Source: Streptomyces xanthophaeus
GTDB lineage: Bacteria; Actinomycetota; Actinomycetes; Streptomycetales; Streptomycetaceae
Assembly (NCBI RefSeq): GCF_000725805.1
Contig: NZ_KL647132.1
Span: forward strand, 248,001 to 312,000
Length of the DNA stretch: 64,000 bases
Direction of reading: 5' to 3'
Both the position numbers and the translations under genes were made by a program. Under the pieces are notes generated by a model. It did no database searches and was not told the origin of the DNA. It was given only the letters and a program-made list of their open reading frames with translations. Positions 4,402-15,352 of this stretch are shown here, one piece after another. Numbering within the stretch: the first letter of the stretch is position 1; each line of letters begins with the position of its first letter.

Positions 4402-5133
4402 TCAGCCTATGGCCCCACCGATCCAGGTTCCCAGGATGTACGTCACACCCGCGGCCGCGCCACCCAGGACGAGCTGGCGCACACCGCTGTACCACCAGGA
4501 CCTGGCCGTGACCCGGGCGACGACCGCGCCGCAGGCGAAGAGCCCCACCAGCGCCAGCAGGACCGCGGGCCACAGGGACGTGGCCCCGAGCAGGTACGGC
4601 AGTACGGGCAGCAGCGCACCGAGCGCGAACGAGCCGAAGGACGAGACGGCGGCGACCATCGGCGAGGGCAGGTCGTCGGGGTCGATCCCGAGCTCCTCGC
4701 GGGCGTGTATCTCCAGCGCCTGCTCCGGATCGCGCGACAGCTGCATGGCGACCTCGCGGGCGAGGGCGGGCTCGACGCCGCGCGAGACGTAGAGCTCGGC
4801 CAGCTCCTCCATCTCGTCGACCGGGTGCTTGCGCAGCTGCTGGCGCTCGATGTCCAGCTCGGCCAGGACCAGCTCCCGCTGTGAGGCGACGGAGGTGTAC
4901 TCACCGGCGGCCATCGAGAAGGCGCCGGCCGCCAGGCCCGCCAGGCCGGTGATCACCAGGGTCTGCGGGGCGACGGCGCCGCCGGCCATGCCGGTCATCA
5001 GGGCGAGGTTGGAGACCAGCCCGTCCATGGCGCCGAACACGGCCGGCCGCAGCCATCCGCCGTTCACGTCCCGGTGGGTGTGGTTGTCCCGGTGGGCGGT
5101 GTGCAGCGGTGCCTGGACGTCAATGATGGACAT
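4402..5133 (-). CDS. VIT1/CCC1 transporter family membrane protein
   Basis: A 243-residue membrane protein of the VIT1/CCC1 family, whose characterised members move iron or manganese across membranes. After a short His-containing cytoplasmic start (HTAHRDNHTHRD) comes VFGAMDGLVSNLALMTG, the conserved first helix, then GAFSMAAGEYTSVASQREL typical of the family. A charged cytoplasmic segment (about residues 75-150) and three hydrophobic helices follow. The start ATG at 5133 has GGGGAG about 8 nt upstream; a longer in-frame reading runs back over the divergent gene and is not credible. The metal substrate cannot be read from sequence. Confidence 0.88.
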   Translation of the reverse strand: MSIIDVQAPLHTAHRDNHTHRDVNGGWLRPAVFGAMDGLVSNLALMTGMAGGAVAPQTLVITGLAGLAAGAFSMAAGEYTSVASQRELVLAELDIERQQLRKHPVDEMEELAELYVSRGVEPALAREVAMQLSRDPEQALEIHAREELGIDPDDLPSPMVAAVSSFGSFALGALLPVLPYLLGATSLWPAVLLALVGLFACGAVVARVTARSWWYSGVRQLVLGGAAAGVTYILGTWIGGAIG

Positions 5134-5379
5134 GCGACAAATCTCCCCTTTTGCGCGAACGGGCGGCGCGACACGTCCCGCTCCCCCTGACACCTCGAAC
5201 CTACGCACGATTTTTCGGCCCCGCCAGCAAGGAAGGCCGTACTTACCTGCGGTTTTGCGCCTCGGCGACCGGGTGACGGGGGTCTTCGCGGGGTGTTTCG
5301 CGACAGGCGACAAACCACATGCCATGGCACAAATCCCCCAAGGGCTCAATATGAGTCCCATCAAGTGGAGAGGCGCGCC

Positions 5380-6366
5380 ATGGAGCTGATTGCATGCAAT
5401 CCGCAGGTCCTCCTCGAACGGGCCAGGGGCGCTCTTCTGGGCCTCGCGGTGGGTGACGCGCTGGGCGCCCCCGCAGAGAACATGAAGCCGTCCGAGATCC
5501 GGGCGAAGTGGGGCCGCATCGAAGGCTTCGTGTCGGAGGACCCGGCGGGTACGGACGACACCGAGTACGCGATCTTCTCGGGGCTCCTCCTGGCCCGGCA
5601 CGGCTCGGCCCTCACCGTCTCGCACGTGGAACGGGCGTGGCACCACTGGATCGCGGACCTGGACGAGGGCCCCTTCCGCGGCGCCGGCTTCTCCGAGCGC
5701 GGCACCCTGGAGAACCTCCGCCGGGGGCTCGCCGCCCCCATCTCGGCGCAGCACCGGCACGCGTGGTCGGACGGCCTCGCCATGCGGGCGGCGCCCTTCG
5801 GGGTGTTCGCCGCGGGCCGGCCCGCGGAGGCGGCCCGGCTGGTGGCGATCGACGGCTCGGTCAGCCACGACGGGGAGGGCATCTACGGCGGCCAGGCGGT
5901 CGCGGCGGGGGTCGCCGCCGCGATGGCGGGCGGCTCCGCGGCCTCGGTCGTCTCGGCGGCCCTGTCCGTCATCCCGTCCGACTCCTGGACGGCCCGCTCC
6001 CTGCGGCGGGCGGTCACCGCCGCCCCGCGCGGCGAACGGGCGGTGCGCTCGGCGGTGGTCATCGGCGGCTACCCGTGGACCGACCTGGCCCCGGAGGCGG
6101 TGGGCCTGGCCTTCGGCGCCTTCGCCGCCTGCCGGGGGGACTTCTCCGGCTCGGTCCTGACGGCCGTGAACATGGGACGGGACGCGGACACCACGGCGGC
6201 CGTCGCGGGCGCCCTGGCCGGGGCGATGTCCGGCGCCGCGGCGATCCCCGAGGCATGGGCCTCGGCGATCGGCCCGGTGCGGGGCAGCTGCCTGCCCTCG
6301 ATGCGGGGCTACCACGTCCTGGACATCGCGGACCTCCTCACCCCCGAATACGAGGCCCCCCGATGA
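5380..6366 (+). CDS. ADP-ribosylglycohydrolase family protein (ARH1 of array)
   Basis: First of four consecutive ARH/DraG-fold proteins, 328 residues. Family members hydrolyse N- or O-glycosidic bonds to ADP-ribose or related ribosides with two Mg ions. The metal motifs look complete: GLAVGDALGAP near residues 21-31, TDDT at 58-61, and GRDADT with Asp268 and Asp270 near the C-terminus, followed by the Ala/Gly-rich helix typical of the fold. The start ATG at 5380 has GGAGAGG upstream; an in-frame upstream ATG at 5293 adds residues unlike the family. Its stop overlaps the next start as ATGA. It is probably an active hydrolase; the substrate is unknown. Confidence 0.9.
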   Translation: MELIACNPQVLLERARGALLGLAVGDALGAPAENMKPSEIRAKWGRIEGFVSEDPAGTDDTEYAIFSGLLLARHGSALTVSHVERAWHHWIADLDEGPFRGAGFSERGTLENLRRGLAAPISAQHRHAWSDGLAMRAAPFGVFAAGRPAEAARLVAIDGSVSHDGEGIYGGQAVAAGVAAAMAGGSAASVVSAALSVIPSDSWTARSLRRAVTAAPRGERAVRSAVVIGGYPWTDLAPEAVGLAFGAFAACRGDFSGSVLTAVNMGRDADTTAAVAGALAGAMSGAAAIPEAWASAIGPVRGSCLPSMRGYHVLDIADLLTPEYEAPR

Positions 6367-8471
6367 CCCGCTCCCCCGACCCCACCCCGGCGACCACCAC
6401 CCCGCCCGCGCCAACCCTCGGCGCGGGCGCCACGACTACGGCAGGCCTCAGCGCGAGCGCCACCGCCGCGGCAGGACCCGGCGCGGGGGCCGCTGGCCCC
6501 GTCCCGTCAGCCTCCGGCCCGGCAACCCCGCCCGCGCCAACCCTCGGCACTGGCGCCCCGACTCCGGCAGTTCTAGGGGCGGGGACCTCGGCCCCGGCAG
6601 GCCTCGGCGCGGGGGCCTCAACCCGGGCGGGCCTCGGCACGCCGCCCACCAGCCCCGTCCCGGCAGCCTCCGGGCCGGCAACCCCGACCCTCGCGGGCCT
6701 CGGCGCGAGCGCCCCCGCCGTGGCCGGACCCGGCGCGGGGGCCACTGGCCCCGTCCCGGCAGCCTCCGGCCCGGCAACCCCGGCCCCCGCGGGCCTCGGC
6801 ACTGGCGCCCCGACTCCGGGCCTCGGCGCGGGGGCCGCAACCCCGGCGGGCCTCGGCGCGCGGGCCGCGGCCCCAGCGCCCCTCGGCGCGAGCGCCACCG
6901 CCGCGGCAGGACCCGGCGCGGGGGCCGCCGTCGGGGCTGCGGCGCCTGGCTCCGTGCCCGCCGCGCCCACGGCCCCGGCCGCCGGCGGTGTGGCCCTCGC
7001 CCCGCCGGCCCCCTTCTCCGGACCCGGGACCAGAATCGTCCTCCACCCCCACCCGGCCCCGGCCGGCCTGCCCCCCGTACCGCCCCTGTCCCCCGTCCCC
7101 GAGCCCGCAGGGCCGGGCACGGCCGCGGATCCCGGTGCGGTTCTGCCCCCCACCGGGACCGCCCTGCATCCCGCCGGGCCCCGTCCGGCCCTGGCCCCGG
7201 CGGGCCTGCACCCCGTAGGGCCCGGCCCCGTACCGGTCCTGGCACCCGCCGCCGGGCCCGCACGGGCCGGTACCGCATCGGCCCTCGCCGCAGCCCCGGC
7301 GGCCCCGGCCCCGGCGGTCCGGCCCGTGTCGCTCCCCGCAGGGGTCCGCGCAGGGGTCCGGCCCATCGAGGGGCTGCTCCTCGGGCTCGCCGCAGGCGAC
7401 GCCGCCGGGTGGCCCGCCGCCCGGCACCGGGCCAGCCGGATGCCCGAGTGGACCCGCCGCCTCACCCGCGAGCTCGACACCTTCGCCGAGCAGAACGCCA
7501 CCACCACCCTCCCCGTCCCCATCGCCCTCAACCAGCCCCCCGAACCCCTGCGCCTCGGCCCGAGCGACGACGCCGAATGGGCCGCCTTCGTCGCCGAGTC
7601 CGTCCTCACCGCCGCGGGCGTGCTGCTCAGCGACCTCTCCCGGTCCCGCCGCATGCGCGCCGCCATCGACCTCGCCTGGAACGCCCTCGCCTCCGAGATC
7701 GCCGCGGCGGCCGAACGCGCACCCGAGGTCGAATCCGCCGTCCTCCCCCTCCGCGCCCGGATCTCCGTCCGGGCCGGTCTCGGCAACCTCGCCGCAGGCC
7801 TCCGCCCGCCCGCCACCGGCCACGACAACCCGCACTACTTCGACGACGCCGCCTGCGTCCGGGCCTGTGTCCTCGCCGTCGTCCACCCCGGGGACCCCCG
7901 CGCGGCCGCCGACCTCGCCGAGTTCGACGCCCGCTACACCCAGGACGGCGACGGGGTCCACGGGGCCCGCGCCATGGCCGCCGCCATCGCGACCGCCCTC
8001 GGCGGCGCGGACGTCGACTCCGCGGTCGAGGCCGCCCTCGGACAGCTCCCCGAGGCCACCGAGATCGGCCGCAACGCCCGCCACGCGGTCCGTCTCGCCC
8101 GTACGAGCCGGGAAGGCGGTGCGTTCGCCATCGTCCCGACCCTGGAACACGAGATCGTGGACCACGTGTACAGCTACGGGATCGCCGCCGCCGAGACCGT
8201 GCCCGTCGCCCTGGCCCTGGCGACGGCCGCCCGCGGCAGGGTCACCGAGGCCGTCCCGGCCGCGGCCTGCCTGTCCCGCGTAGCCGACTCCGCCCCCGCC
8301 CTGGCCGGCGCGCTCACCGGCGCCCTCGGCGGCGGCGACTCGATCCCCACGGCCTGGCGCGAGGCCTGCCGCACCCTCTCCGGATGCGCCCTCCCCCGGC
8401 TCGCCGGCACCGACCTCGTGGAACTCGCCGCGCTCCTGACCCGCACGGAACTCACCTCACCCAAGGGATGA
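6363..8471 (+). CDS. ARH-fold protein with long Ala/Pro/Gly leader and degenerate active site (ARH2)
   Basis: Second ARH-fold protein, 702 residues. Residues 1 to ~330 are low-complexity Ala, Pro, Gly, Thr and Val with imperfect repeats of the type PAASGPATP and GLGAGA; the globular domain starts near residue 331 (RPIEGLLLGLAAGDAAG). The active-site motifs are weakened. TDDT is replaced by SDDA (401-404), and the C-terminal GRDADT-type motif reads SRVADSAP, so the first metal-binding Asp is Val640 while Asp642 remains. It may be a non-catalytic partner of its neighbours. The ATG overlaps the previous stop (ATGA). An alternative start is GTG at 7326, which would remove the leader but has no ribosome binding site. 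Confidence 0.75.
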   Translation: MTRSPDPTPATTTPPAPTLGAGATTTAGLSASATAAAGPGAGAAGPVPSASGPATPPAPTLGTGAPTPAVLGAGTSAPAGLGAGASTRAGLGTPPTSPVPAASGPATPTLAGLGASAPAVAGPGAGATGPVPAASGPATPAPAGLGTGAPTPGLGAGAATPAGLGARAAAPAPLGASATAAAGPGAGAAVGAAAPGSVPAAPTAPAAGGVALAPPAPFSGPGTRIVLHPHPAPAGLPPVPPLSPVPEPAGPGTAADPGAVLPPTGTALHPAGPRPALAPAGLHPVGPGPVPVLAPAAGPARAGTASALAAAPAAPAPAVRPVSLPAGVRAGVRPIEGLLLGLAAGDAAGWPAARHRASRMPEWTRRLTRELDTFAEQNATTTLPVPIALNQPPEPLRLGPSDDAEWAAFVAESVLTAAGVLLSDLSRSRRMRAAIDLAWNALASEIAAAAERAPEVESAVLPLRARISVRAGLGNLAAGLRPPATGHDNPHYFDDAACVRACVLAVVHPGDPRAAADLAEFDARYTQDGDGVHGARAMAAAIATALGGADVDSAVEAALGQLPEATEIGRNARHAVRLARTSREGGAFAIVPTLEHEIVDHVYSYGIAAAETVPVALALATAARGRVTEAVPAAACLSRVADSAPALAGALTGALGGGDSIPTAWREACRTLSGCALPRLAGTDLVELAALLTRTELTSPKG

Positions 8472-8478
8472 TTCGGAC

Positions 8479-9624
8479 ATGACGCTCACGTTGGAGGAAC
8501 GGGCCGCAGGCGCCCTCGTCGGAGCCGCCGTGGGCGACGCCCTCGGCGGCCCGGTGGAGGGCTGGACCCCGGAGCAGATCCTCGACCGGCACGGCGGCCG
8601 CGTGCACGGCATCGTCGGCCCGTGGCACGAGGACTGGCGCACGGCCCGCCCCATCGCCCCGTACCACAAGGGCGACGGGCACGTCACCGACGACACCCTC
8701 ATGACCCACGCCCTGGTGCGGGTCTACGCGACCGTGCGCGACCACCTGGACGCGTACGCGGTCGCCGAGCACCTGGTCCCCGACCTGATGACCAACCCCC
8801 GCTGGATCCCCGAGCTGGAGGCCGAAGCCCTGCCGCTCCAGCGGATCTTCCTCGCCGAGAAGTGGATCGTGACCCGGCTGCACTACGGGCACGTCGACCC
8901 GCGCGAGGCCGGCAGCGGCAACATCGTCAACTGCGGCGCCGCGATGTACATGGCGCCCGTCGGGATCGTCAACGCGGGCAATCCGCACGGCGCGTACGCG
9001 GAGGCGCTGGACCTGGCCGGCGCCCACCAGTCCTCGTACGGGCGGGAGGCGGCCGGGGTGTTCGCGGCGGCGGTGGCCGCCGCCTGCCTGCCCGGGGCGA
9101 CGGCCTCCTCGGTGGTGGAGACGGCCCTGTCCCTGGCCAAGGACGGCACCCGGGCGGCCATCGCCGCCGTCGCCGAAGCGGCCTCGGCGCACCGGGACTT
9201 CGAGTCGGCGCTGGCTCCGCTGCGGGCGGCGGTGGCCCCGTACGACTCGGTCGGCCCGGACTACCGCAACCCGTCGCTGGGCGCCCGCCGCCCCTCGCGC
9301 CTGCACTCCATCGAGGAACTGCCCGTCGCGCTCGGGATGCTGCTGGTCGGGAACGGCTCCTACGAGACCTCCGTGCTCGGCGCGGTCAACTACGGCCGGG
9401 ACTGCGACTCCATCGCCACCATGGCCGGGGCGATCGCCGGGGCGCTCGGCGGCGAGCAGGCGGTCCCGGCGGCCTGGGCCAAGCAGGTCGCCGAGGCCAG
9501 CCGCCTCGACCTGCACGCCCCGGCCGCGGTCCTCGCCACGGTGGCCCGGGAGGTCTTCACCCGCGACCTGGCACGCCGCGATGCCCACGAGTCGGCCTTC
9601 ACCGCGATCTCGGCCCCCCGGTGA
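8479..9624 (+). CDS. ADP-ribosylglycohydrolase family protein (ARH3 of array)
   Basis: Third ARH-fold protein, 381 residues, compact, with no low-complexity leader. The motifs are complete: AAVGDALGGPVEGW near the N-terminus, VTDDT with Asp71 and Asp72, and NYGRDCDS with Asp308 and Asp310, followed by MAGAIAGALGG. It carries an insertion around residues 95-160 (containing MTNPRWIPELEAEALPLQR) that is absent from ARH1, pointing to a different substrate pocket. It begins 8 nt after ARH2 and ends in a GTGA overlap with ARH4. It is probably catalytic; the substrate is unknown. Confidence 0.9.
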   Translation: MTLTLEERAAGALVGAAVGDALGGPVEGWTPEQILDRHGGRVHGIVGPWHEDWRTARPIAPYHKGDGHVTDDTLMTHALVRVYATVRDHLDAYAVAEHLVPDLMTNPRWIPELEAEALPLQRIFLAEKWIVTRLHYGHVDPREAGSGNIVNCGAAMYMAPVGIVNAGNPHGAYAEALDLAGAHQSSYGREAAGVFAAAVAAACLPGATASSVVETALSLAKDGTRAAIAAVAEAASAHRDFESALAPLRAAVAPYDSVGPDYRNPSLGARRPSRLHSIEELPVALGMLLVGNGSYETSVLGAVNYGRDCDSIATMAGAIAGALGGEQAVPAAWAKQVAEASRLDLHAPAAVLATVAREVFTRDLARRDAHESAFTAISAPR

Positions 9625-11327
9625 ACCGTGCCCCCGGCCTCGCGCCCCCCGGCCCGGTGCCACCCGGTACGGAGCCCGGCCCGCCCGGCGCCGCCCCGGC
9701 CCCCACCCCGGCCCCGACCCCGACTCCGACTCCGGCTCCGGCTCCGACTCCGGCTCCGGCCCCGACTCCGGCTCCGGCCCCTGCTCCCGGCCGGCACCCC
9801 GGCCCGGCGGCCCGCCCGGGCTCCGGGCCCGTCCGCGGTGGCGCCGCGGAGTACGGCGACGTGCTGCTGCGGGTGACCTGGGTGCAGCCCGAGGACCTGA
9901 TCGGGCACGAGTTGCGGCAGGCCGCCGAGGACGGACGCGACCCGGGGCCCGCCCGGCGGGCCTGGCTCGCCGCGGGCGGGCACCTCGCGCCGGAACGCGC
10001 CGGGGCCTCCCCCGGCCCGGCAGACCCGGCCCTGCGCGCCCTGGCCGTCCGTCTCCTGGACGAACTCGCGGCCCTGCCGTCCCCGTCGGCCGTCGACGAA
10101 CCGCAGACCTGGGAAGCCGTACGCGCCTGCTGGCCCACCCATGACGGCCAAGCAGCGCCCGTCCCCGACGGCCAAGCAGCGCCCGTCCCCGACGCCCACC
10201 CTGCGCCCGGGCCCGGCCACGCCGCGCCCCGCGCCGCCGGGCCCGGCGCGCCGCGGCCCCCGGTCCCGCCGGACCTGCGGGACCGGCTGGAGGCCGCCTG
10301 GCTCGGGCGCGCCGCGGGCTGCTTGCTGGGCAAGCCCGTGGAGAAGCTCCCGCTCCAGGCCATCCGGGCCCTGGCCCGCGCGGCGGGCAACTGGCCCCTC
10401 GACGGCTGGTTCACCGCCGAGGGGGTCCCGCCGGAACTGCTGGCCGCGCACCCCTGGAACCGGCGCTCCGCCCCCACCTCCCTCGCCGAGAACATCGACG
10501 GCATGCCCGAGGACGACGACCTCAACTACCCCCTCCTGGGCCTGCTGCTGCTCCAGCGGCACGGCCCGGGCTTCACCACCGCCGACGTGGGCCGCCTCTG
10601 GCTCGACGAGCTGCCGGCGGGGCGGACCTTCACCGCCGAGCGCATCGCGTACCGCAATCTCCTCCTCGGCCTGGAACCGCCCGCCACCGCCACCCACCAC
10701 AACCCCTTCCGCGAGTGGATCGGCGCCCTCATCCGCGCCGACGTCCACGGCTGGACCCACCCCGGCGACCCGGCCGCCGCCGCGGCCGCCGCCTACCGGG
10801 ACGCCGCCCTGACCCACACCGGCAACGGCGTGTACGCGGCCCTGTTCGTCGCCGCCGCCACCGCCGAGGCCGCCTCCGGCCGGGCCGACGTGCACGGCGC
10901 GCTGCGGGCCGGGCTGGCCGTCGTACCGCCGCGCTCGCGCCTCGCCGAGGCCGTCCGTTCCGGGATCGGGGCGGCCTGCGAGGAGCCGGACTTCGAGGCC
11001 GTCGTCGACCGGCTGCACGCCCGCTACGGCCACTACCACTGGGTGCACGCCGTCCCCAACACCGCTCTGGTCGCCGCCGCCCTCACCCACGCCGGCGGCG
11101 AGTTCACCGGGTCCATCTGCCGGGCCGTTTCCGGCGGTTGGGACACCGACTCCAACGGGGCCACGGCCGGCGCGCTCGCCGGGATCCTGGCCGGGTCGCC
11201 CGGGCGGCTGCCCGAGCGCTGGACCGCTCCGCTGCGCAACCGCCTCGCCACGACCGTCGCCGGTTTCGACGGCATCGGCTTCGACACCCTCGCCCACCTC
11301 ACCGCACAGGAGGCAGCCCGCTCATGA
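9621..11327 (+). CDS. ARH-fold protein with Pro/Ala/Thr-rich leader and DDDLNY motif (ARH4)
   Basis: Fourth ARH-fold protein, 568 residues, starting at a GTG that overlaps the previous stop. Residues ~14-60 are a Pro-Ala-Thr repeat encoded by a near-hexameric DNA repeat. Residues 70-175 form a separate small region (EYGDVLLRVTWVQPEDLIGH) also seen with this subfamily, followed by a direct repeat of DGQAAPVP. The ARH domain begins near residue 225 (AAWLGRAAGCLLGKPVE). The first metal motif is EDDDLNY (297-303) instead of TDDT, a variant shared by a distinct ARH subfamily; the C-terminal motif GGWDTDSNGA with Asp508 and Asp510 is intact. It is likely active on a substrate different from that of ARH1 and ARH3. 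Confidence 0.82.
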   Translation: MNRAPGLAPPGPVPPGTEPGPPGAAPAPTPAPTPTPTPAPAPTPAPAPTPAPAPAPGRHPGPAARPGSGPVRGGAAEYGDVLLRVTWVQPEDLIGHELRQAAEDGRDPGPARRAWLAAGGHLAPERAGASPGPADPALRALAVRLLDELAALPSPSAVDEPQTWEAVRACWPTHDGQAAPVPDGQAAPVPDAHPAPGPGHAAPRAAGPGAPRPPVPPDLRDRLEAAWLGRAAGCLLGKPVEKLPLQAIRALARAAGNWPLDGWFTAEGVPPELLAAHPWNRRSAPTSLAENIDGMPEDDDLNYPLLGLLLLQRHGPGFTTADVGRLWLDELPAGRTFTAERIAYRNLLLGLEPPATATHHNPFREWIGALIRADVHGWTHPGDPAAAAAAAYRDAALTHTGNGVYAALFVAAATAEAASGRADVHGALRAGLAVVPPRSRLAEAVRSGIGAACEEPDFEAVVDRLHARYGHYHWVHAVPNTALVAAALTHAGGEFTGSICRAVSGGWDTDSNGATAGALAGILAGSPGRLPERWTAPLRNRLATTVAGFDGIGFDTLAHLTAQEAARS

Positions 11328-12229
11328 CGGCCATCGCCGTGCTCGGCAGTACGAACATGGACCTCGTCGCCTACGTCCCGAAGGCCCCCCGCCTCGGGGA
11401 GACCGTCACCGGCCGCGCCTTCCGCACGGCCCCCGGCGGCAAGGGCGCCAACCAGGCCGTGGCCGCCGCCCGCAGCGGCGCGGAGGTGGTGATGATCGGG
11501 GCGGTCGGGGCCGACGACTTCGGTGTGCGGCTGCGCTCCGCGCTCGCCTCCGCCGGGGTCGACACGACGGCCCTGCGCACCGTGGAGGGCGCCAGCGGCA
11601 CCGCGCACATCACGGTGGACGACGAGGGCGCCAACAGCATCATCGTGGTCCCCGGGGCGAACGCGCACGTCACCGGCCTGGAGGCGGGTGACGACGGCCG
11701 GATCGGCGCCGCGGACCTGCTGCTGCTCCAGCTGGAGCTGCCGCTGGAGGCGGTGCTCGCCGGGGCCCTGGCGGCCCGCGCGCACGGGGTGCGTACGGTC
11801 CTCACCCCGGCCCCGGCGCAGCAGCTGCCCGCCGGGCTCCTCGCCGCCACCGACCTGCTGGTCCCCAACGAGCACGAGGCGGCCGCCCTGACCGGGCTCA
11901 CCGACCCGTACCGGGCCGCCGAGGCGCTCCTGGAGCAGGTGCCGGAGGTCGTGATCACCCTGGGCGCCGCCGGATCGCTGTACGCGGCCAGGGGCCGGGA
12001 GCCGCGCGCCGTGCCCGCCCCGCAGGTGCGGGCCGTGGACACCACCGCCGCCGGGGACACCTTCGTCGGGGCGCTGGCCGTGGCGCTCGGGGAGGGCCGC
12101 GCGATGGACGGCGCCCTCGCCTGGGCCTCCTGCGCGGCGGCGCTGTCCGTGCAGCGGCCGGGCGCGCAGGACTCGATGCCGTCCCGCGCCGAGCTCGTCG
12201 CCTTCGCGGCCGCCCAGGGCGTCCGCTGA
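11324..12229 (+). CDS. rbsK: Ribokinase-like PfkB family sugar kinase
   Basis: A 301-residue PfkB-fold kinase closest to ribokinase, expected to phosphorylate ribose or a ribose-containing product at O5. It shows the substrate motif GSTNMDLV, the APGGKGANQA loop near residue 40, and the ATP/anion-hole motif TTAAGDTF with catalytic Asp245. AGGAGG lies 10 nt before the ATG, which overlaps the ARH4 stop (ATGA). Co-translation behind four glycohydrolase-fold proteins suggests it captures the sugar they release. The substrate could also be a nucleoside or another pentose. Confidence 0.88.
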   Translation: MTAIAVLGSTNMDLVAYVPKAPRLGETVTGRAFRTAPGGKGANQAVAAARSGAEVVMIGAVGADDFGVRLRSALASAGVDTTALRTVEGASGTAHITVDDEGANSIIVVPGANAHVTGLEAGDDGRIGAADLLLLQLELPLEAVLAGALAARAHGVRTVLTPAPAQQLPAGLLAATDLLVPNEHEAAALTGLTDPYRAAEALLEQVPEVVITLGAAGSLYAARGREPRAVPAPQVRAVDTTAAGDTFVGALAVALGEGRAMDGALAWASCAAALSVQRPGAQDSMPSRAELVAFAAAQGVR

Positions 12230-13428
12230 TGGCCGAGCCGCCCGCCGGACCGCTGCGGGGGCTGCGCGTCCTCGACCTCGCCACCCTCTTCGCCGGGCCG
12301 CTGGCCGCCACCCTGCTCGGTGACTTCGGCGCCGAGGTCGTGAAGGTGGAGCATCCCGGCCGGCCCGACCCCTCCCGGGGCCACGGCCCCGCCAAGGACG
12401 GCATCGGCCTGTGGTGGAAGCTGCTCGGCCGGAACAAGCGGACGATGACCCTCGACCTGTCGGTGCCCGGCGGCCGGGACACCCTGCTGCGTCTGGCGGC
12501 CACCGCCGACGTGATCGTCGAGAACTTCCGCCCCGGCACCCTGGAGAAGTGGGGGCTGGGCTGGCCCGAGCTGTCGGCCGTCAACCCCCGGCTGGTCCTG
12601 GCCCGGGTCACGGCCTTCGGCCAGCAGGGCCCGTACGCGCACCGGCCCGGCTTCGGCACCCTCGCCGAGGCGATGAGCGGCTTCGCCGCGATCACCGGGG
12701 AGCCTGAGGGCCCGCCCACCCTGCCGCCGTTCGGGCTCGCGGACTCCATCGCCGCGCTGACCACCGCGTACGCCGTGATGACCGCGCTGGCCGGGCGCGA
12801 GCGCACCGGGCACGGGCAGGTCGTGGACCTGGCCATCATCGAGCCGATCCTCACCGTGCTCGGCCCGCACCCGCTCTGGTACGACCAGCTCGGCTACGTC
12901 CAGCCGCGCACCGGCAACCGCTCCTCGAACAACGCGCCCCGCAACACCTACCGCAGTGCGGACGGGCGCTGGCTGGCCGTCTCGGCCTCCGCGCAGTCCA
13001 TCGCCGAACGGGTGGTGCGGCTGGTGGGGCGGCCCGAGCTGATCGACGAGCCCTGGTTCGCGTCCGGCACGGAGCGGGCCGCCCACGGGCACGTCCTGGA
13101 CGAGGCGGTGGGCGGCTGGATCGCCCGGCACAAGGCGGACGAGGTGGTCGCGGCCTTCGAGGAGGCCGAGGCGGCCGTGGCGCTGGTGTACGACGTGCGG
13201 GACGTGATGGAGGATCCGCAGTTCGCCGCGCTGGACACGGTCACCGAGGTGCAGGATCCGGAGCTCGGCCCGCTGCGGATGCAGAACGTCCTGTTCAGGC
13301 TCTCCGAGACTCCGGGGGCGATCCGCTGGGCGGGCCGCCCGCACGGCGCGGACACCGAGGAGGTGCTGACCGAGCTGGGGCTGACCCCGGCCGAGGTCAC
13401 CGCGCTCCGCACCGAGGGGGCGCTGTGA
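12229..13428 (+). CDS. CaiB/BaiF family (class III) CoA transferase
   Basis: A 399-residue class III CoA transferase, which moves CoA between carboxylic acids. It shows the family start RVLDLATLFAGPLAATLLGD, then EVVKVEHPGRPD, ENFRPGTLEKWGLG and a central FGLADSIAALTTAYAV, whose Asp is the expected acyl-carrying nucleophile. Its ATG overlaps the kinase stop by one base (TGATG). The next gene is a CitE-like lyase, so the two probably act in sequence: CoA activation of an acid, then C-C cleavage. The acid is unknown; formyl-CoA, malate or itaconate-type substrates are all possible within the family. Confidence 0.87.
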   Translation: MAEPPAGPLRGLRVLDLATLFAGPLAATLLGDFGAEVVKVEHPGRPDPSRGHGPAKDGIGLWWKLLGRNKRTMTLDLSVPGGRDTLLRLAATADVIVENFRPGTLEKWGLGWPELSAVNPRLVLARVTAFGQQGPYAHRPGFGTLAEAMSGFAAITGEPEGPPTLPPFGLADSIAALTTAYAVMTALAGRERTGHGQVVDLAIIEPILTVLGPHPLWYDQLGYVQPRTGNRSSNNAPRNTYRSADGRWLAVSASAQSIAERVVRLVGRPELIDEPWFASGTERAAHGHVLDEAVGGWIARHKADEVVAAFEEAEAAVALVYDVRDVMEDPQFAALDTVTEVQDPELGPLRMQNVLFRLSETPGAIRWAGRPHGADTEEVLTELGLTPAEVTALRTEGAL

Positions 13429-14240
13429 TCCTGACCTGGCTGTACGCCCCGGGCGACCGTCCTGCGGTGGTGGCCAAGGCCCTCGGCTGCGGGGCCGACG
13501 CCGTCATCGTGGACCTGGAGGACGCGGTGCCGGCCTCCCGCAAGGAGTACGCCCGCGCCGCGACGGCCGAACTGCTCGCCGAGCGGCCCCCGGTCCCCGT
13601 GCACGTCCGGGTGAACGCCCTGGCCTCGCCCTGGGGCGGCGTCGACCTGACCGCGCTGGCGCCCTGCCGCGGGCTGGCCGGGCTGCGGCTGCCCAAGATC
13701 AGCGCCCCGGAGCAGGTCGCGGCGGTCGCCGACCGCACCGGGGGGGTCGCCCTGTACGCCCTGCTGGAATCCGCGCTGGGTGTGGAGCGCGCCTACGAGA
13801 TCGCCCGCGCGCACCCCGCCCTGCGCGGGCTCTCCCTCGGCGAGGCGGACCTGCGGGCCGACCTGGCCGTCAGCGCGGAGACGGGCCTGGACTGGTGCCG
13901 CTCCCGGGTGGTGGTCGCGGCCCGCGCCGCCGGGCTGGTCCCGCCGGCCCAGTCGGTGTTCCCCGACATTCGGGACCTGGAGGCGCTGGCCGTCTCCTGC
14001 TCGCGGGGCCGCTCCCTCGGCTTCCTGGGGCGGGCGGCGATCCACCCCCGGCAACTGCCGGTGATCGAGCAGGCCTACCTGCCCGCTCCCGCAGAGGTCA
14101 CCGCGGCCCGGGAGGTGCTGGCCGCGGCCCGCGCCACGCCCGGGGCGCTGGCGCTGCCCGACGGGCGTTTCGTGGATCCTGCCGTGGTCGCCGCCGCGCA
14201 CCGCACCCTCGCACTGGCCGCGCGGGTCCCCGCGCACTGA
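13425..14240 (+). CDS. CitE-like HpcH/HpaI family CoA-ester lyase
   Basis: A 271-residue CitE-type protein starting at GTG inside the previous stop (GTGA). Family members cleave or hydrolyse malyl-, citramalyl- or citryl-CoA-like thioesters using Mg. Visible motifs are LYAPGDRP at the start, VIVDLEDAVP with the metal-adjacent Glu-Asp, HVRVNAL, LRLPKIS, LLESALG with a metal-binding Glu, and GRAAIHPRQLPVIE near the C-terminus. No CitD or CitF partners are present, so this is a stand-alone lyase or thioesterase, not citrate lyase. It ends the seven-gene operon and is followed by a strong bidirectional hairpin. Confidence 0.86.
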   Translation: MILTWLYAPGDRPAVVAKALGCGADAVIVDLEDAVPASRKEYARAATAELLAERPPVPVHVRVNALASPWGGVDLTALAPCRGLAGLRLPKISAPEQVAAVADRTGGVALYALLESALGVERAYEIARAHPALRGLSLGEADLRADLAVSAETGLDWCRSRVVVAARAAGLVPPAQSVFPDIRDLEALAVSCSRGRSLGFLGRAAIHPRQLPVIEQAYLPAPAEVTAAREVLAAARATPGALALPDGRFVDPAVVAAAHRTLALAARVPAH

Positions 14241-14258
14241 CCGCGGCCGGCCGCGCAA

Positions 14259-14300
14259 CGTGAAGGGGGCGCCGCGGTGTGCGCGGCGCCCCCTTTCACG
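14259..14300. terminator. Bidirectional hairpin between the CitE-like gene and lgt
   Basis: CGTGAAGGGGGCGCCGCG pairs with the complementary 3' arm around a GTGTG loop, with only one bulged T. It lies exactly between two convergent genes and could serve both. There is no U-tract, as is common in Streptomyces. Confidence 0.8.
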
Positions 14301-14311
14301 GATCGTTGCGG

Positions 14312-15352
14312 TCAGAGCTTCTTGGGCTCCGGGGCTTCGCCCTCGGTCGGGTGCTTCTTGCTCAGGTCGGCCTTGGCGGGCTCGCCGTTCGTCGCCACGG
14401 ACGCCTCGACCTTGTCCTGCGCCTCGTCCTGCGCCTTGTCCTGGTCGTCGTCCTCCGCGCCGGAAGGGGCAGTGGTGTCCGCGGACCCGTCCCCGGCCGG
14501 GACCTTCGCGTCCGCGTCCGCACCGCCGGAGGTGTCCGGCTCGACGATCTCCTCGCGGCCCGGCCGCAGCTTCGCCGACAGCACCAGGTAGACCACGGCC
14601 AGGACGAAGACGACGATCGAGGTCCACACGTTGAGCCGCAGGCCCAGGATGTGGTGCGCCTCGTCGACCCGCATGTACTCGATCCAGCCGCGGCCGACGC
14701 AGTACGCGGCGACGTACAGGGCGAAGGCCCGTCCGTGGCCGAGCTTGAAGCGGCGGTCGGCCCAGATCACCAGTACGGCGACGCCGATGCACCACAGCGA
14801 CTCGTAGAGGAAGGTCGGGTGGTAGGTCCCGGCGACCCGGTTCGGGCCCTCGCTGATCTCCACCGCCCACGGCAGATCGGTGGCGCGGCCGTACAGCTCC
14901 TGGTTGAACCAGTTGCCCCAGCGGCCGCAGGCCTGGGCCAGGGCGATGCCCGGGGCCAGGGCGTCGGCCCAGGCCGGCAGCGGGATGCCGCGCAGCCTGC
15001 AGCCGATCCAGGCGCCGACCGCGCCCAGCGCGATCGCGCCCCAGATACCGAGGCCGCCTTCCCAGATCTTGAAGGCGTCGACCCAGTTGCGGCCCTCGCC
15101 GAAGTAGAGCTGGTAGTCGGTGATCACGTGGTAGAGGCGACCGCCGACCAGGCCGAACGGCACTGCCCACACAGCGATGTCCGCGACCGTGCCCGGCTTT
15201 CCGCCGCGCGCGATCCACCGCTTGTTGCCGAGCCAGACAGCGACGAAGACGCCGAGAATGATGCAGAACGCGTAGCCGCGCAGCGGGATCGGTCCGAGAT
15301 GGATCACGCCGGTCGACGGGCTGGGGATGTAAGCAATGTCCATGGCAGACAT
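14312..15352 (-). CDS. lgt: Prolipoprotein diacylglyceryl transferase
   Basis: This enzyme transfers diacylglycerol from phosphatidylglycerol to the lipobox cysteine of prolipoproteins in the plasma membrane. The product has 346 residues with about seven hydrophobic helices and the Lgt signature GRWGNWFNQELYG; the conserved HVITDY motif precedes it. The C-terminal ~80 residues are an acidic, Asp/Glu/Ala-rich cytoplasmic tail (DDDQDKAQDEAQDKVE) absent from proteobacterial Lgt. The ATG at 15352 (MSAMDIAYIP) has AGGG 7 nt upstream and was preferred over a start 20 codons earlier. The lspA gene for the next lipoprotein step is also in this window, at 59.4 kb. Confidence 0.95.
   Translation of the reverse strand: MSAMDIAYIPSPSTGVIHLGPIPLRGYAFCIILGVFVAVWLGNKRWIARGGKPGTVADIAVWAVPFGLVGGRLYHVITDYQLYFGEGRNWVDAFKIWEGGLGIWGAIALGAVGAWIGCRLRGIPLPAWADALAPGIALAQACGRWGNWFNQELYGRATDLPWAVEISEGPNRVAGTYHPTFLYESLWCIGVAVLVIWADRRFKLGHGRAFALYVAAYCVGRGWIEYMRVDEAHHILGLRLNVWTSIVVFVLAVVYLVLSAKLRPGREEIVEPDTSGGADADAKVPAGDGSADTTAPSGAEDDDQDKAQDEAQDKVEASVATNGEPAKADLSKKHPTEGEAPEPKKL

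Follow-up and report, generated by a model that had tools for sequence, protein, structure and literature searches.

A conserved actinomycete operon of four ADP-ribosylglycohydrolase-fold proteins, a ribokinase and a CoA transferase/lyase pair: a candidate pathway for an imported ribose conjugate

The window considered here is a stretch of 64,000 nucleotides from Streptomyces xanthophaeus (contig NZ_KL647132.1), and its subject is a run of seven + strand genes at positions 5380-14240, in which four proteins of the ADP-ribosylglycohydrolase (ARH) fold, designated ARH_A to ARH_D, precede a ribokinase (RBK), a class III coenzyme A (CoA) transferase of CaiB type (CAIB) and a CitE-like lyase (CITE). 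Lengths are given in amino acids (aa), and the loci and genomes compared with the window are numbered with the prefixes L and G, respectively. The features of this region are as follows.

5380..6366, + strand: ARH_A, ADP-ribosylglycohydrolase-fold protein, 328 aa; PF03747 at 203 bits, with 7/7 scored metal-site positions kept
6363..8471, + strand: ARH_B, degenerate ARH-fold protein, 702 aa; PF03747 at 127.6 bits over residues 337-663
8479..9624, + strand: ARH_C, ARH-fold protein, 381 aa, common to rhizobial operons; PF03747 at 178 bits
9621..11327, + strand: ARH_D, ARH-fold protein with N-terminal extension, 568 aa; PF03747 at 157 bits over residues 225-527
11324..12229, + strand: RBK, ribokinase, PfkB family; TIGR02152 at 315.7 bits, above its cut-off of 299.65
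12229..13428, + strand: CAIB, class III CoA transferase, CaiB type; PF02515 at 403 bits
13425..14240, + strand: CITE, stand-alone CitE/RipC-type CoA-ester C-C lyase; PF03328 at 102.7 bits
14259..14300, no strand assigned: long GC-rich hairpin, possible terminator, between the operon and the convergent lgt, from the fold energy of 14241-14312

A sequence-only reading had described this set as an operon, and its seven members, their order, their strand and the junctions that it named were borne out by the sequence and by Pfam. An ATGA overlap (6363-6366, read from the sequence) joins ARH_A to ARH_B, a 7-nucleotide gap (8472-8478) separates ARH_B from ARH_C, and overlaps of GTGA (9621-9624) and ATGA (11324-11327) link ARH_C to ARH_D and ARH_D to RBK, respectively. 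A single nucleotide (12229) is shared by RBK and CAIB, and a further GTGA overlap (13425-13428) by CAIB and CITE. The Pfam domains are PF03747 in the four ARH proteins (127.6-203 bits, all above the gathering cut-off of 26.2), followed by PfkB, CoA_transf_3 and HpcH_HpaI.

This arrangement was compared across 126 loci, 92 from Streptomycetaceae and 34 from outside the genus, which were picked for encoding ARH_C, so that the presence of ARH_C is given. Among the genes present, the core order A-B-C-D-(ribokinase)-CaiB-CitE is held in 123/126 loci and the seven-gene arrangement is therefore not due to chance; L232 and L237 differ, and L035 was flagged solely for a distant kinase match (41%) elsewhere. 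The genes are thus conserved together in related genomes, and the sequence-only reading, which would have been refuted had they not been, stands on this count. Within Streptomycetaceae, CAIB is found in 90/92 and CITE in 89/92 loci, two of the misses (L083, L097) being contig ends, while RBK is in place in 62 of the 88 scorable loci, one of them (L113) with a fragment only. The Streptomycetaceae loci fetched comprise 13 neighbourhoods besides that of the window and the 80 best loci from a scan of named genomes (93 in all), and one Streptomyces with a cut ARH_C (G581, L254) was fetched in addition. The 34 loci outside the genus are all 33 class-wide matches outside Streptomyces together with Nonomuraea, from a plasmid collection. 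These carry ARH_A in 29, ARH_B in 30, ARH_D in 32, RBK in 27, CAIB in 29 and CITE in 29 cases. One large group among them belongs to Jiangellaceae, by 100% protein match and taxonomy, and two carriers (G574 and G645) have genomes of just 1.3-1.8 Mb.

At family level, ARH_C orthologs occur in 14/61 Streptomycetaceae genomes and 3/17 genera (E <= 1e-40); within Streptomyces, at E <= 1e-50, they occur in 29/40 genomes of the class-wide search and 31/41 of a second genome set. Class-wide, at least 62 of 394 genomes and at least 15 of 137 genera carry one, which are lower bounds with at most four candidates scored per genome. Across the phylum, 296 genomes were searched with up to six candidates scored in each, and ARH_C (E <= 1e-25) turned up in ten, all of Streptomyces. 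Every row with a host name among the best 120 matches to ARH_C and to CitE is Streptomyces, so that these matches do not widen the picture.

Genes for a LacI regulator, both permeases of a sugar ATP-binding cassette (ABC) importer and its binding protein (SBP) stand 5' of the ARH genes in 32/34 loci outside the genus and in 11/92 Streptomycetaceae loci, by tblastn; the LacI and SBP_bac_1 assignments were checked by Pfam in Nonomuraea only. The two importer-less loci outside the genus (L221, L224) start at a contig edge, and in the 11 Streptomycetaceae loci the set is directly 5' of ARH_A. Wherever the binding protein and the ARH genes are linked (43 loci), they share a strand, and the distance from the binding-protein match to the first ARH match after it is -21 to 421 bases. 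The full form, LacI-PermA-PermB-SBP-ARH_A-B-C-D-RBK-CAIB-CITE, is complete in 22/34 loci outside the genus. From the absence of a transporter or regulator in the operon it had been argued that the substrate may be made inside the cell; that absence is true of most Streptomyces loci only, and as a general reading the argument is not supported, given the importer genes linked in relatives.

The window locus itself has no adjoining LacI/ABC set, and the importer is found on another contig of the same genome. There, the protein that best matches the binding protein of Nonomuraea has 51% identity to it (the next have 23-30%) and is accompanied by both permeases, with no LacI match beside them. A tree of 50 binding proteins unites the Streptomycetaceae copies (100/100); within this group, eight orphan Streptomyces copies (98/91), including that of the window's own genome, are sister to ten operon-borne copies (100/99), and the operon-borne copy of L035, on a long branch, falls outside both sister clades. 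The 28 Streptomyces genomes that encode the binding protein have one match each, which in two of them (G718, G741) lies a few kilobases from ARH_C. From these data, the importer was probably relocated away from the operon in most Streptomyces. No ATPase gene was hit by a UgpC query in those actinobacterial ARH operons that were scanned for importer genes; the Mycolicibacterium and rhizobial ones do have UgpC.

In the window, the operon is flanked by a VIT1 family gene and by lgt, each on the opposite strand. The stretch between citE and lgt (14241-14312) has a predicted fold energy of -49.1 kcal/mol (z -3.3), with 1 of 200 shuffles equally stable. A promoter scan of 5100-14400 found no sigma-70-like site and was uninformative. 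The gap between VIT1 and ARH_A contains a conserved block at 5222-5260 (GCCAGCAAGG... GGCCGTACTTACC), the core of which occurs in 60/69 intergenic regions and which has no match in Rfam. It was considered as an operator 5' of ARH_A in Streptomyces and rejected: in L092, which has VIT and ARH_A at separate places, the block remains beside VIT, and for this reason it probably belongs to the VIT1 gene.

The ARH proteins were scored at seven positions (a Glu, the TDD motif and the DxDT/S motif) that we take to form the metal site of DraG, and which were checked by alignment. ARH_A aligns to the DraG structures 2woe/2woc. The dinuclear metal-site motif is present in ARH_A, ARH_C and ARH_D almost without exception: it is kept in ARH_A of 80-81 loci from Streptomycetaceae and 30 from elsewhere, Ser replacing Thr in 2 rows; in ARH_C, with Gln replacing Glu in 1 row; and in ARH_D, which has Glu (Ala in 1 row) at the position where ARH_A and ARH_C have Thr. 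In ARH_B, both the Glu and the first Asp of DxD are replaced in all rows scored, the former by Ala, Gly, Val or Arg and the latter by Val, Ile, Leu, Thr, Lys or Asn. ARH_A and ARH_B occur together in 111/126 loci, and neither is present in five, one of which (L221) begins with ARH_C at a contig edge. ARH_B stands without ARH_A in ten, each with at most 1.05 kb between ARH_B and the contig end, and every uncut locus with either protein has both. ARH_B, kept as a protein although two ligands are lost and never without ARH_A where the locus is uncut, resembles a pseudoenzyme partner; the two are probably an enzyme/pseudoenzyme pair, in which ARH_B would not be an active enzyme.

ARH_B and ARH_D both carry long additions at the N-terminus. 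Residues ~1-330 of ARH_B form a variable extension rich in Pro, Ala and Gly, and its frame is open back to the ARH_A stop in 79/81 Streptomycetaceae and 22/29 other loci, with an in-frame ATG or GTG at that stop in 72/81 and 14/29, respectively. More than 200 aa precede the ARH domain of ARH_D, comprising a variable part rich in Pro and Ala and a stretch of ~90 aa that, judged by eye, has a counterpart in a second genus (L239). At least 86 codons separate the ARH_C stop from the ARH-domain match in all loci scored, and the frame is open back to that stop in 89/90 Streptomycetaceae and 26/32 other loci. In the window, the extensions rich in Pro, Ala and Gly lie at 6363-7370 (ARH_B) and 9621-9850 (ARH_D), ranging from a few to several hundred residues across species with the frame mostly open; they look translated, and strongly varied in length. 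Distant ARH_D-like genes at other loci of two Streptomyces genomes (L162, 6912-9395; L163, 5633-8029) have a glycerate kinase gene as divergent neighbour, and L164 is arranged similarly.

The names ARH1, ARH3 and ARH4, under which these proteins had been proposed for searches, found no support. Against the DraG equivalog TIGR02662 (cut-off 337 bits), ARH_A scores 78.5, ARH_C 59.9 and ARH_D 18.8 bits; against the Tri1 equivalog NF041672 (cut-off 490 bits), ARH_A scores 47.1 and ARH_C 44.6 bits, with no match for ARH_D. ARH_B matches neither. A predicted structure of ARH_C had a mean predicted local distance difference test score (pLDDT) of 65.9, too low for use.

The downstream enzymes are likewise conserved at the residue level. 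The CaiB aspartate D172 is invariant in all rows scored, as are E115, D142 and H207 of CitE in its rows, with R62 kept in all but one, and this conservation of key residues suggests that both are active enzymes; the RBK motifs are also largely invariant across loci. The best NCBIfam matches of the window's CaiB and CitE fall below the cut-offs of named functions: 226 bits against 750 for CaiB and the succinate-glutarate CoA transferase NF052585, and 148.1 bits against 375 for CitE and RipC (NF038242), with 130.5 bits against 443.4 for citE (TIGR01588). Itaconate degradation is encoded by a RipA-RipB-RipC operon, which resembles the present one in coupling CoA transfer to a RipC-type C-C lyase. 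The window operon differs in that none of its seven genes encodes an itaconyl-CoA hydratase, its lyase falls short of the RipC cut-off, and ARH-fold proteins and a ribokinase are coupled to the pair.

Many of the relatives encode one protein more. A protein of ~640 aa lies between ARH_D/RBK and CAIB in 18/34 loci outside the genus (e.g. L223, 5187-7112) and in none of the 93 Streptomycetaceae loci; the window's genome shows weak matches to its formylglycine-generating enzyme (FGE) part only. The C-terminal part is FGE-like, and in a model (mean pLDDT 81.5) the N-terminal fold is loosely alpha-amylase-like (best E 1.5e-8), which hints that the native substrate may carry a further sugar.

Related operons are also borne on plasmids of other groups. 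ARH_C homologues at 42-46% were found in 20 Hyphomicrobiales records of the plasmid collection, ten of which were viewed (12 of the 22 matching plasmid records overall). The usual rhizobial form is LacI-permease-permease-SBP-ARH_C-(700 aa ARH)-UgpC, and what follows UgpC varies: a CoA transferase and a CoA ester lyase in L174, L180, L181, L182 and L183 (frame-broken), a CoA transferase alone in L179, a ribokinase in L172, and neither CoA genes nor ribokinase in L173, L175 and L176, the last of which also has no 700 aa ARH. This second rhizobial ARH (in L174, 11136-13235) has no Pfam match above cut-off in its last 400 residues, with a sub-threshold Laminin G match there, and proteins like it are encoded in Enterobacter (L185) and Deinococcus (L188). 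LacI, sugar-ABC genes, ARH and ribokinase are also grouped on plasmids of Mycolicibacterium and Deinococcus. Compared with the window, the rhizobial CaiB is ~45% and CitE 32-34% identical. A CaiB tree, which has two rows with branch length 10 and is used solely for this purpose, separates the operon copies of rhizobia from those of actinobacteria; as stand-alone copies lie near each group, the pattern suggests that the CaiB-CitE pair was recruited twice.

The occurrence together of ARH enzymes, a ribokinase, a CoA transferase/lyase pair and, in relatives, LacI and importer genes points to a compound in which ribose and an acid are joined by a glycosidic bond. We therefore favour, with moderate confidence, a LacI/ABC-fed catabolic pathway for an exogenous conjugate of the ribofuranoside type, of which the operon would be the intracellular half. 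The sequence-only reading had likewise ordered the genes into a catabolic route, and this view is strengthened by the conservation of the set, by its position 3' of the LacI and sugar-ABC genes outside the genus and by the similar linkage in some rhizobia. Each reaction of the proposed scheme, its substrate and any complex of ARH_A with ARH_B are what we infer from the genes. The importer, whose genes are part of the operon in most relatives outside Streptomyces and occupy a separate locus in the genome studied here, would bring in the ribose conjugate, whose glycosidic bond or bonds would be hydrolysed by the ARH-fold enzymes. The core of these would be ARH_C, joined by ARH_D and by ARH_A, the last acting together with the degenerate ARH_B. 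As had been envisaged, this first step would be the cleavage of an N- or O-riboside. Freed ribose would be converted to ribose 5-phosphate by the linked ribokinase, or by another kinase where RBK has been lost, while the freed hydroxy-acid would be activated by the CaiB CoA transferase and its hydroxyacyl-CoA split by the CitE-type lyase to acetyl-CoA and a small oxo-acid. Lyases of the CitE type require a free 3-hydroxyl on the CoA ester (3-hydroxyacyl-CoA). Since deribosylation would unmask such a hydroxyl, the simplest substrate may be a beta-hydroxy(di)carboxylic acid, similar to malate or citramalate, in the form of its O-riboside.

In its overall plan, this pathway would resemble two kinds of known system. 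LacI-regulated sugar ABC operons, presumably of the CUT1 type, combine, like the operons of the relatives, LacI, two permeases, an extracellular binding protein, intracellular hydrolases and a sugar kinase; here, the hydrolases are of ARH fold and a CoA-dependent acid branch is added. The Escherichia coli yegTUV set, cited as a precedent for an ARH-kinase pair, also brings together a transporter, a sugar kinase and an ARH-fold protein, controlled by a regulator of their own. It has one ARH protein instead of four, a predicted nucleoside:H+ symporter and a GntR regulator where relatives of the window have ABC and LacI genes, and no CoA transferase or C-C lyase. The window accordingly contains the ARH and kinase of a yegTUV-type set and neither its symporter nor its GntR regulator. 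yegTUV is repressed by YegW/GgaR, which is reported to respond to ADP-glucose, along with a link to glycogen (PMC10819704).

Several observations weigh against an imported ribose conjugate. The pathway is unproven, being drawn from genes with a predicted substrate and predicted activities, and the O-riboside is deduced from the general chemistry of the lyase class. Ribokinase, taken by the sequence-only reading as a central step, passes the cut-off of its equivalog and is also the member most often lost in Streptomycetaceae, with seven gains or losses required on the tree and at least four forced. A natural reduction in Streptomyces kronopolitis (L065, 8745-13490) has left ARH_C and CaiB alone between VIT and lgt. 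CaiB-CitE is missing from four of the ten rhizobial records viewed (L172, L173, L175, L176), of which L172 alone has a ribokinase, and the acid need not match between phyla, given the low CitE identity and the stand-alone CaiB copies near both groups. The alpha-amylase likeness of the extra protein is weak, with template-modelling scores (TM-scores) below 0.5. As for the importer, the nesting of the orphan copies hinges on one long-branched row, that of L035, and an old duplication with losses could also account for them. Among 41 Streptomyces genomes, 22 have both the binding protein and ARH_C, 6 the binding protein only, 9 ARH_C only and 4 neither (Fisher p 0.70); as the two are not associated, the orphan importer may serve something else there.

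Best among the alternatives, and doubtful in our judgement, survives the view that two modules share one promoter, the ARH proteins and ribokinase recycling ribosides or ADP-ribose and CaiB-CitE degrading some imported acid (e.g. citramalate or malate) with no relation to these. CaiB-CitE pairs do occur apart from ARH genes in Burkholderia and Nonomuraea (62-64% CaiB identity), in the latter ~0.58 Mb away from the ARH operon, and one in Rhodococcus lies near an SLC13 permease and a PrpF gene. Conversely, three LacI/ABC/ARH operons (L177, L242, L243) have ~7 kb of room and no linked CaiB-CitE, which speaks for separable modules and against a single pathway. A mere shared promoter sits poorly with the tight D/RBK/CAIB/CITE overlaps in the window, with the retention of CAIB and CITE in nearly all Streptomycetaceae loci, and with the recurrence of the linkage in some rhizobia, whose CaiB groups apart.

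Classical reversal of ADP-ribosylation, in which the four ARH proteins would free a protein, nucleic acid or antibiotic of ADP-ribose and the ribokinase would take up the ribose, we consider unlikely here. In PMC9411070, Streptomyces coelicolor is credited with eight uncharacterised DraG/ARH homologues, SCO2028-2031 included; the window's genome also has eight PF03747 genes, four in the operon and four at other loci. By gene numbering, SCO2028-2031 would be ARH_A-D, with SCO2028 and SCO2030 matching ARH_A and ARH_C. SCO2028-2030 are listed as putative DraG-like hydrolases in PMC5087735, where the number of hydrolases is taken to suggest a lively ADP-ribosylation metabolism. Membership of PF03747, the metal motifs kept in three of the four proteins (in ARH_D largely so) and the alignment of ARH_A to DraG agree with this view. 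From DraG and ARH1-3 the set differs in its equivalog scores far below cut-off and in the two ligands lost from ARH_B, and against the view stand the LacI and sugar-ABC genes within the operons of relatives. SCO2028 and SCO2030 are moreover reported to be inactive on synthetic uracil-alpha-ADP-ribose, a single substrate (PMC13036486). None of the seven genes encodes an ADP-ribose transferase by Pfam.

ARH3 hydrolyses O-acetyl-ADP-ribose, and a salvage of sirtuin-made O-acyl-ADP-ribose, in which ARH would free an acyl acid for re-activation by CaiB and cleavage by CitE, would suit the best, sub-threshold match of CaiB to a succinate-glutarate CoA transferase, but it is very improbable, as it needs no importer where importer genes are linked in relatives, and none of the seven operon genes is a sirtuin by Pfam, with no sirtuin search made elsewhere in these genomes.

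Catabolism of a ribose conjugate, although unproven, is thus the explanation that we judge likelier than any single rival. No description of the operon as a pathway, and no mention of SCO2032 or SCO2033, was found in searches of one open-access library, and the ARH and ribokinase genes in PMC10434189 come from different organisms. More tentatively, the ARH fold may have been taken over for metabolic ribosidases that feed a complete route for a so far unrecognised ribose conjugate from the environment, which would probably be the O-riboside of some beta-hydroxy-acid. This route would be widespread in Actinomycetes and have a parallel rhizobial form, with ARH_A and ARH_B as an obligate active/pseudoenzyme complex and deribosylation unmasking the hydroxyl for a CoA-dependent retro-Claisen lyase. 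The conserved binding protein would offer a direct handle on the substrate, and the ARH_A/ARH_B pair a testable case of enzyme and pseudoenzyme within this fold. If the four ARH proteins do serve a nutrient pathway, part of the surplus of ARH proteins in S. coelicolor would have a metabolic role, one invisible to assays confined to ADP-ribosylated substrates.

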